In this document: positions 16,849-63,712 of the stretch, in pieces | How the letters are laid out: the number at the start of each line of letters is the position of its first letter | Numbering within the stretch: the stretch's first letter is position 1 | From: Candidatus Tumulicola sp. | Lineage (GTDB): Bacteria > Vulcanimicrobiota > Vulcanimicrobiia > Eremiobacterales > Eremiobacteraceae | Reading direction: 5' to 3' | Assembly: GCA_035601835.1 (NCBI GenBank) | Contig: DATNNM010000010.1 | Coordinates: 1-64,000, forward strand | DNA: 64,000 nucleotides | Made by a program: the position numbers and the translations under genes | Notes under the pieces: model-generated | Seen by the model: only the letters and a program-made list of their open reading frames with translations | What the model was told of the DNA's origin: nothing | Databases searched by the model: none

Positions 16849-17771
16849 CTACCGTATGGCCATGCCCCAAGGACTGCTGATCCCAGTGGTGACCGAGCCC
16901 ATCGGCGCGATGTTGCCGTTCGCGGACGACCCGAAAATCAGAACCGCGTTTGCACCTTCGTTGGTCACGAAGATCGTGCTTGCGCGATTGACCTGCACCA
17001 CGGTAGGGTTAGCGAGCGTTGTCGCAACGCCCTTAATGGCGCGCGCCGGTACGACATTCCCGTCCTGCGTCGGTCCAAAGACCGATACCGCCTGAACGTT
17101 GTAGTCCGCAACGAGCAGCTCGCCAGCGGCGTCCACCGCGAGGCCGTAAGGATTGGTCAGCCCGGTGTTTAAGCCGGATATTTTGTGCAGTGGCGTCGGC
17201 GTGCCCGTCGCGGTCGCAGAAAAGGCGGCCACGATGCCCGTGTTTTCATCAGACAGCCAGAGGTTGCCGAGTGCATCGAATGTCGGATATTCGGCCCGCG
17301 TCATCCCTGCGCCGGCAACGCTAAACGTGCGCACGGGCGTGGCCGCAGCGTCCGCGCCAGGCGCAAAAACATACAGCGTGGTCGTGAGCGAGCCGACATA
17401 GGTGTTACCATCGGGCCCGACGCTTACGCCGAGAGGGTTGACCACCGTGGTGATGGTGTGGATCGGCGTCGAGCTGCCGTTCGCGCCGGGGGCGAACTCG
17501 AAGACCATGCCGTTGGTATATTGGGCCGCGAAGATATCTCCGGCGTTGTCCATCGCCAGCCCGTGAGCGCACGTAAGCCCTGCGGCGGTGATCGTGCGGG
17601 TCGGAGCGGTGTCGCCCGTGATCGCGGCCGGATACACGGTGATCGTATGGCTGAGACCGCAATTGCCGACGATCAGGGACTGCGGCCCTAGCGGTATGAT
17701 CGGTGGGGTACTGGTGTTATTGCAGCCGGCTATGAAGGCGACGCTTAGAATGAAAAAGGGAGTTTACGCAT
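16849..17771 (-). pseudogene. NHL-like beta-propeller lipoprotein with a frameshift in its signal peptide
   Basis: The 262-residue body (GTG-open from 17637) has repeated propeller blades: GLAMDNAGDIFAAQY, PLGVSVGPDGNTYVGS, PYGLAVDAAGELLVAD, each paired with an APGAN/GxxxPxxxI phrase. Upstream the reading goes through FIAGC, a lipobox, but has no start codon in that frame. An ATG at 17771 with a perfect GGAGG 5 nt before it gives MRKLPF in another frame. Adding one T to the T5 run (17753-17757 on plus as A5) joins MRKLPFF to ILSVAFIAGC. So the gene is a lipoprotein broken by one base, through real mutation, phase variation or assembly error. Confidence 0.7.
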
Positions 17772-17850
17772 TAGGTCCTCCATGACACGTAGAAATTAGC
17801 GGCCCTCTGAAGGTTTCGCCAGCCGCCGCGCCCACCCCTGCACGTGGAGC

Positions 17851-40293: not shown

Positions 40294-41289
40294 CTACGCG
40301 CTGCGCTCCCGCCACTGCTGCACGAAATCGGCGAGCGGCGGCAGATCTCTTGCGCGATCTGCTGCGTCGTCGAAGTGCTGCGCGGCTGCGCGCGCGGCCG
40401 CGACCCGAGCTCCACAGCGTTCTAGCGCGATGCGAAGTTCCGAAACTTCTTGCGCTTGCGCTTCTGGGACTTGCGCCTCGGAACGCGTGAATGCACGTCG
40501 GATGATCTCGCCCGCCCCACTCGGATCATTTTCGAGCGCCCACACGATCGGATAGGTCATCTTTTGGCGCGCGATGTCGCTGCCGGCAGGCTTGCCGGTA
40601 TGCTCCGTCGCTCCCCAGATGCCCAGCACGTCATCTTGGATCTGAAATCCAAGGCCAAACGAACGACCGATGCTCGAAGCCTGTTGCACGGCGGCCTCGC
40701 TCGCGCCGGCGCAGCGCGCTCCGAGGCGCCCGGCGCACGCGAAAAGCGCGGCCGTCTTGCCGCCGATCATCTCGAGGTACGCGGCGACGTGCAGCGCCGC
40801 GGCGCCTTCGGCATCCAGGTCGAGTGCCTGACCTTCGCACATCTGCACGTTCGCAGTTGCCAGATCCAGGCCCATATCGCGCGCCGCCTGTGCGCTCACG
40901 CCGGCTTCTTCTTCCACGCTTTCGAGCGCGAGGTGCGCAAGCGCACCGACCGCATCCCCCGCATTGATGCCGTGTGCGAGCCCGTAACGCGACCAAATCG
41001 TCTCGCGGCCGTGGCGCAGCGTGTCGCTGTCTTCGATGTCATCGTGGATCAGCGAGTAGTTGTGCAGCAATTCGATGGCGGTGCATGCGCCGTACGTCGC
41101 CGGCGCCGGTGCGCCGTGCGCCGCGGCTGCGGCGAGCACCATGCGCGGACGCAGGCGCTTGCCGCGCCGCGGCTTTTCGCGGCCTGCGTCGAGGTAACCG
41201 AAATGGTACGCGATCTGCGCAAAGACAGGGTTGTCGCGGGCGTGGCGCCGGAGAAAGGCTTCGAAGTATGCTTCGAAGGCGTCGAGCAT
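40294..41289 (-). CDS. Polyprenyl diphosphate synthase
   Basis: 331 residues. First Asp-rich motif HDDIED (DDxxD) and GKRLRPRM for diphosphate binding. The second is QIQDDVLGIWG, i.e. DDxxG; this form is known in some actinobacterial and chloroflexal enzymes and usually keeps activity. Residues just before the first motif (LLHNYSLIHDD) are small to medium, so chain length cannot be set by eye. Lies 3' of ispH on the same strand and upstream of the GT-C gene, so its product likely supplies the lipid carrier for it. Confidence 0.88.
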   Translation of the reverse strand: MLDAFEAYFEAFLRRHARDNPVFAQIAYHFGYLDAGREKPRRGKRLRPRMVLAAAAAHGAPAPATYGACTAIELLHNYSLIHDDIEDSDTLRHGRETIWSRYGLAHGINAGDAVGALAHLALESVEEEAGVSAQAARDMGLDLATANVQMCEGQALDLDAEGAAALHVAAYLEMIGGKTAALFACAGRLGARCAGASEAAVQQASSIGRSFGLGFQIQDDVLGIWGATEHTGKPAGSDIARQKMTYPIVWALENDPSGAGEIIRRAFTRSEAQVPEAQAQEVSELRIALERCGARVAAARAAAQHFDDAADRARDLPPLADFVQQWRERSA

Positions 41290-62467: not shown

Positions 62468-63712
62468 ATGTGGGATTGGGAACGCGCCTCCGTCCCCTTC
62501 CAGCCGATCTATCGCCGGCGGCTGTGGCGCCGCCGTCTGCTCGTGTTCTGCTCAGCCCTTGCGATCGTCGTTCCGTACCTGCTCATCCATCATCAACGCG
62601 AAACCACGCCGGTCGGTGCGCGCGTTTTTGACGACGTCACGACGGCGATCTCCATGCGCTACTTCGACTGGTCGTATCACGGGCTCGATTGGAACGCCCT
62701 GACGCGCCAATATCGTCCGCTTGTCGCCGCCGCCCCCACGGTCGAGCGCCGCTACGCGCTCATGCGGCAAATGCTGCGCCGCTTGGGCGATAGCCATACG
62801 CTCGTCTACTCGCCGTCGCAGTTGAAGCCACCCGATCCGCTGCCGCGCCACGGCATCTTCGGCATGACGGCAGGCCGGGCCGGCGATCCCAGCTCGATCG
62901 TGGACTGGAAGTCGCTTTCGCGCGACGTCGGATATCTTCGACTCGGCTCGTTCCCCAATGCGATCGAACCCGTGCTCGGCTGGGCCATGGCCGATGTGGG
63001 CCGCAAGTCCAAGCTGATCCTGGATCTGCGCGGCAACCCGGGCGGCTTGGTCGATTCGGTGGACAGCGCCGCCGGCGTTTTCTTGCCGGCCGGCACGTTG
63101 ATCTCGACCGGTCTGCGCCGCTACCACTTCTTCGGCCCGCAGCGCTTTGTCGCATCCGATAGCGTCGGGGCGCGCTACAATGGTCGTCTTGTCGTCTTGG
63201 TGGATAGGGGCAGCCGCAGCGGTGCTGAGTCCCTGGCGCGCGCGCTGCAGTATTATCATCGGGCGACGATCGTCGGAACGCGCACGGCGGGCAAGGTGCT
63301 GGGCGTCGATCTCGAGATCAATCTCGCGGACGGCGGCATGCTGCGCGTGGCCACGCTGGACATGCGCGCGCCGGACGGCCGGCGTTTGGAAGGCCGCGGC
63401 GTCACGCCGGATGTGTTTGTTGCGGCGTCGCGTCGCCGCGACGCGCAGCTCGATAGAGCGTTTCAACTGCTCCAAATGTCACGGCCTCTTTGGAGCGCGT
63501 CACGGGACTCGGCGGGGTCTTTTTCAAGTCGAGAGACCCTAAGCGGCTCTACGCATGGTACGAAAAGCACCTCGGGATCAGGCAGCCGTCCGGCTCGGGT
63601 GCGGAATTTCACTGGCGCGACGCCGAGGATGGATCGCCGGGCACGACGGCTTGGGCGATCTTCGACGAGAGCAGTGATTATTTCGATCCCAGCCGCGCAG
63701 GCTTCATGTTGA
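62468..63712 (+). CDS. S41 family (C-terminal-processing-type) peptidase, exported, with a suspect C-terminal tail
   Basis: 414 residues. N-terminal anchor helix (about 22-41), tail-interacting helical domain, and the S41 core: LRGNPGG, the Ser nucleophile in VDRGSRSGAESLA and the Lys in GTRTAGKVLG. It lacks a recognisable PDZ domain between anchor and core. The catalytic domain ends near residue 340; the last 75 residues read antisense-like, Arg/Ser-rich sequence over the start of the next gene for 223 bp. The natural stop has probably been lost by an indel near 63480. Confidence 0.75.
   Translation: MWDWERASVPFQPIYRRRLWRRRLLVFCSALAIVVPYLLIHHQRETTPVGARVFDDVTTAISMRYFDWSYHGLDWNALTRQYRPLVAAAPTVERRYALMRQMLRRLGDSHTLVYSPSQLKPPDPLPRHGIFGMTAGRAGDPSSIVDWKSLSRDVGYLRLGSFPNAIEPVLGWAMADVGRKSKLILDLRGNPGGLVDSVDSAAGVFLPAGTLISTGLRRYHFFGPQRFVASDSVGARYNGRLVVLVDRGSRSGAESLARALQYYHRATIVGTRTAGKVLGVDLEINLADGGMLRVATLDMRAPDGRRLEGRGVTPDVFVAASRRRDAQLDRAFQLLQMSRPLWSASRDSAGSFSSRETLSGSTHGTKSTSGSGSRPARVRNFTGATPRMDRRARRLGRSSTRAVIISIPAAQASC

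Follow-up and report, generated by a model that had tools for sequence, protein, structure and literature searches.

Programmed -1 frameshifting is exemplified by dnaX and IS-type genes, and phase variation at a poly(C)8 tract by fliP of Helicobacter pylori, the original work on which is reportedly that of Josenhans in 2000. Among NHL/SGL beta-propellers, solved structures include the Pizza designs, the PknD sensor domain (1rwi) and TRIM-NHL; to our knowledge, and by their molecule names, each of these is either a design or one domain of a different protein, and no stand-alone lipoprotein is among them. For loss of frame in the first codons of a gene, a precedent is the 5' poly(A) tract of Listeria inlA. 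In the passages of Orsi et al. 2010 that treat this tract (PMC2831843), A7 keeps inlA in frame and A6 turns it off by closing it after residue 8, strains carry both forms, A6 reverts to A7 at ~5.5e-7, and six bases is the minimum tract length for which switching was known. In fliP, a one-base change from C8 to C7 in a coding tract shuts the gene, as the relevant part of a second report describes (PMC11768039). With regard to frameshifting, the heptamer C_CC.U_UU.U figures, in the portion of PMC4066793 that concerns it, among 18 motifs chosen because they shift frame at >0.10% in E. coli when no stimulator is present.

The locus considered here lies on the minus strand of a 64,000-nt stretch of Candidatus Tumulicola sp. 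DNA (the window), whose full-length coordinates are used below; the preliminary description had given no strand. A Shine-Dalgarno GGAGG (17777-17781) is separated by a 5-nt spacer from an ATG (17771-17769), which opens the codons ATG CGT AAA CTC CCT TTT TCA TTC TAA, a mini-ORF of 27 nt including its stop (17745-17771, TAA at 17747-17745) that encodes MRKLPFSF. An upstream ATG (17783-17781), 12 nt 5' of the first, belongs to the same closed frame. The frame is lost at codon 6, in a T5 run at 17753-17757, which overlaps an X_XXY_YYZ-shaped heptamer, C_CCT_TTT, in the 0 frame (17754-17760) as a possible -1 slip site. The preliminary description had reported a perfect ribosome-binding site, the start MRKLPF, the T5 run and a one-base break in the signal peptide, and all four can be read off the minus strand, the frame one base behind that of the ATG carrying a lipobox and a propeller. 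The likeness to inlA is close: a short A/T run among the opening codons is one base short, the rest of the gene is intact, and the product has eight residues, as with the A6 form in the passages cited above (PMC2831843). Unlike inlA, the window gene has T5 and is known from one assembly alone, and the reversion rate quoted is that of inlA. A scan of the surrounding 16.7-18.1 kb returned no promoters and one terminator-like site, a count not above that in shuffled sequence.

The downstream frame (P0001, minus strand, 16849-17763) comprises 304 codons and a stop, is closed on its 5' side by a TAA and has no internal stop from 17763 to 16849. It reads FFILSVAFIAGCNNTSTPP, a hydrophobic stretch that forms the rest of the signal peptide and ends in a lipobox (IAGC, Cys codon at 17722-17724), followed by the NHL/SGL beta-propeller. 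Lipoboxes, here and in all counts below, were called by a rule of our own and not by a trained predictor. The propeller repeats are present: Pfam gave NHL (PF01436, E 3.4e-8, 33.6 bits against a cut-off of 20) and SGL (PF08450, E 2.6e-6, above its cut-off), and phmmer matched Pizza6-SH (E 3e-16) and the PknD sensor domain (2.5e-10), so that the similarity to the solved propellers lies in repeat sequence. The lipobox stands in the same frame as the propeller but not in that of the Shine-Dalgarno-ATG, so that no start codon opens a frame running through both the signal peptide and the propeller. When every ATG, GTG and TTG of the downstream frame was checked, no usable start was found before a GTG at 17635-17637, which lies 29 codons past the lipobox Cys and has no Shine-Dalgarno sequence; left with this start, an annotation pipeline would presumably predict a shortened protein that has no anchor. 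An ATT that overlaps the stop (17751-17749) was considered as a start and rejected, as it would be too distant from the Shine-Dalgarno sequence and would give a signal peptide lacking its n-region.

How unusual this arrangement is was assessed within the genome itself. Homopolymer and family searches covered all 2,565,881 bases, and frame breaks were read in a 445,458-base sample made of the window and 381 kb of further stretches after trimming of overlaps. All ATG codons behind a Shine-Dalgarno sequence were screened for a frame that closes within 60 codons while a one-base-shifted frame holds a signal peptide with a lipobox and stays open for 100 codons or more. Of the 718 ATG sites screened, only that of the window gene showed this mismatch, so that the sequence as given does contain a genuine lesion. 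T5 itself is common, with 284 T5/A5 runs in the sample, and C8/G8 tracts number two in the whole genome (2.57 Mb).

The window gene belongs to a family of at least 12 predicted NHL/SGL beta-propeller lipoproteins in its own genome, where the P0001 protein has 15 matches, sometimes several in one gene. Twelve family genes with a visible 5' end were counted in the stretches read, in two sets of ten and two, leaving out a thirteenth that is cut by a contig end (L144) and o651, a weak match whose 5' end is unclear. Ten of the 12 have the signal sequence in frame (nine by program, one by eye). The two broken members are the window gene and a paralogue on contig 8 at ~120.5 kb (L071:8472-8555, ~120.47-120.56 kb), in which the frame that holds a Shine-Dalgarno sequence and MRGFATIALAATAAIVSACTSSTQTT is not that of the propeller, the change falling at a C8 directly behind the lipobox. 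This C8 is one of the two C8/G8 tracts of the genome; the other (contig 4:23275-23282; L142, ~position 1501) is a G8 on the minus strand, within an open gene for a secretin (domains AMIN, STN and Secretin) whose frame it leaves unbroken. With the paralogue, the broader notion that homopolymers break the signal peptides of this family gains a second case. Another propeller lipoprotein, at the end of contig 7 (L072:19004-19999), has a Cys/His-rich insert, FCICLCSCSPVFCRVGPNCGGGFAVHRHP, behind its signal peptide, and its neighbour carries a similar Cys/His-rich insert.

Among relatives of the same family, 71 family genes were collected in two sets of 48 and 23, after o1233 had been dropped as a second frame of the gene of o1234. 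The lipobox signal was in frame by program in 62 of the 71 and, by eye, a signal sequence stood in the same open frame in eight more; the remaining gene (L101) is a truncated copy devoid of any signal. A one-base break at the signal peptide was found in none of the 71. The best five homologues in relatives are 40-43% identical and have their signal peptide in frame. When nine neighbours of the gene in the window were compared with 40 stretches from relatives, a single weak match (22% identity) was obtained, which offers no synteny argument for orthology, and a contig scan of named relatives gave two distant loci only. The genomes searched included no second one of the same genus. Elsewhere in the window, ARAGORN identified a tRNA-SeC gene (40585-40683, minus strand), and the lineage may accordingly use selenocysteine.

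We rank a recent null allele first, followed by an assembly error, phase variation and programmed frameshifting. A recent one-base null allele in a family of redundant lipoproteins, to which we give about an even chance, would work simply: ribosomes starting at the strong Shine-Dalgarno-ATG would make the 8-residue peptide and stop, and no lipoprotein from this allele would reach the envelope. The survival of the downstream frame would be explained by the youth of the lesion and by at least 11 paralogues that make the loss tolerable. This account draws on the unique mismatch between the start and the lipobox, the intact 304-codon propeller, the relatives' genes in frame (70 of 71), the redundancy of the family and the paucity of other breaks. 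We infer that the base call is correct, that the allele is fixed or common and that the protein is not made. Against it, no further lesion has accumulated as a sign of decay, and a second family member is broken at a long homopolymer, for which a switch, or base calling that is prone to error, would account equally well.

The first of these alternatives, that the cells carry an in-frame run and a normal lipoprotein and that one base was lost in the assembled sequence, we regard as unlikely, though well short of negligible. It would account for a lone one-base break in a homopolymer followed by 304 codons free of other lesions. It would also cover the paralogue, off by one at one of the longest C runs of the genome, base callers failing most at the longest homopolymer runs. 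To gauge whether the assembly is rich in errors, the 445 kb were scanned with a codon-usage Viterbi model that recovered 218 of 482 spiked one-base indels (45%). Six frame changes with no nearby start were flagged; on inspection three were ordinary overlaps (L066, L069 and L078) and three stayed doubtful. In the window, the frame of an S41 peptidase reads on for ~220 bases (63490-63712, plus strand) into the beginning of a glyoxalase-family gene whose first listed start is a TTG, and this pair at 63.4 kb may represent a further one-base break or the loss of a stop. The other two, named by eye, are an RND-like transporter gene (L074, ~5891, minus strand) that begins IFLSNFSVNRPVAV and lacks a canonical start where one is expected, and a sigma-factor-like gene (L080) that may start at CTG. 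Such doubtful places lend the error some support, but the sampled sequence is poor in frameshifts, at about the level expected from real pseudogenes and odd starts. An error-ridden assembly is thus not needed as an explanation, and the many T5/A5 runs of the sample include a single break of this kind. The preliminary description had held on-off switching and an assembly error to be equally possible; the error half of that statement keeps some probability, although the sample is not rich in frameshifts, and the switching half is weakly supported in view of the points that follow.

Phase variation would have slipped-strand mispairing flip the gene between surface display (on) and the 8-residue peptide (off), the C8 paralogue being a second, faster switch. 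In two of the 12 family members the frame is lost at a homopolymer that lies within the signal peptide or directly behind it, and one of the two C8/G8 tracts in 2.57 Mb sits in a lipoprotein of this family. The position of the T5 at codon 6 and the 8-residue product follow the inlA precedent as given in the cited passages (PMC2831843), and both inlA A7/A6 and fliP C8 to C7 (PMC2831843, PMC11768039, in the parts concerned) are examples of genes turned on and off in this way. By analogy with fliP, in which a coding C8 has documented switching according to the same part of that report (PMC11768039), the paralogue could be a real on-off switch; the parallel concerns a different gene, and it applies to the C8 paralogue and not to the T5 gene. 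Several observations argue against this explanation for the window gene, which we consider improbable. Contingency loci are taken to have a coding 5' homopolymer of at least six bases, a length that the C8 exceeds and the T5 falls short of, six being the minimum at which Orsi et al. 2010 knew of switching in the passages cited (PMC2831843). Runs of the T5 type are common in this genome, and the spot is not conserved, the 71 genes of relatives having no one-base break there. Across 117 genomes of the class, C8 near a lipobox yielded 24 rows, a figure that includes overlapping windows, compared with 38 for a reversed-pattern control; the search thus showed no enrichment and gave no sign of a device common in the class. 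Two of the C8 loci returned have a lipobox signal peptide: the paralogue described here, in the off state, and one that is open for 525 codons and hence on. A literature search found no paper uniting NHL repeat, lipoprotein and phase variation.

The statistics of the second break point the same way. The proportion of broken genes differs between the own genome (2/12) and the relatives (0/71) with P 0.019 by Fisher's test, but the first gene had prompted the look, and P rises to 0.053 when the truncated L101 is counted as broken. Without the index gene (1/11 against 0/71) P is 0.13, and at the measured rate of frame changes the chance that one or more of the remaining 11 family genes would be broken is 0.15-0.28. 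Given the first break, the second is therefore not significant (P 0.13-0.28), and the C8 paralogue is no proof of a family-specific process. The more general proposal that the set of propeller lipoproteins is varied by slippage in runs at the signal peptide, with the C8 as a fast switch and short T runs as slow ones, is in our estimation quite improbable.

Programmed -1 frameshifting at C_CCU_UUU, by which the T5 gene would still yield the complete lipoprotein from a fraction of ribosomes, is very improbable: an X_XXY_YYZ heptamer does lie in the 0 frame exactly at the break, the required shift is -1, as in the form and direction treated in the relevant portion of PMC4066793, and the gene's own GGAGG, 17 nt before the second base of the motif, is just at the limit of the range of 6-17 nt given there, but any CCC-T run broken likewise yields such a heptamer, the downstream sequence has no more structure than its shuffled versions (z +1.31 and +0.50), the arrangement is not conserved (70 of 71 relatives' genes in frame, one truncated, none with a one-base break), and, unlike the dnaX/IS-type genes, the site lacks a stimulatory structure and lies very near the start codon.

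What the locus means for the organism depends on which of these explanations holds. If it is a null allele, as we favour, or an error, it has little import beyond annotation, where a gene caller's start at GTG 17637 would hide the lipoprotein nature of the product. If both breaks were switches, they would make this large family of propeller lipoproteins a case of phase variation at the cell surface, and if the set were indeed varied by run slippage, cells of one clone would bear different surface propeller repertoires.
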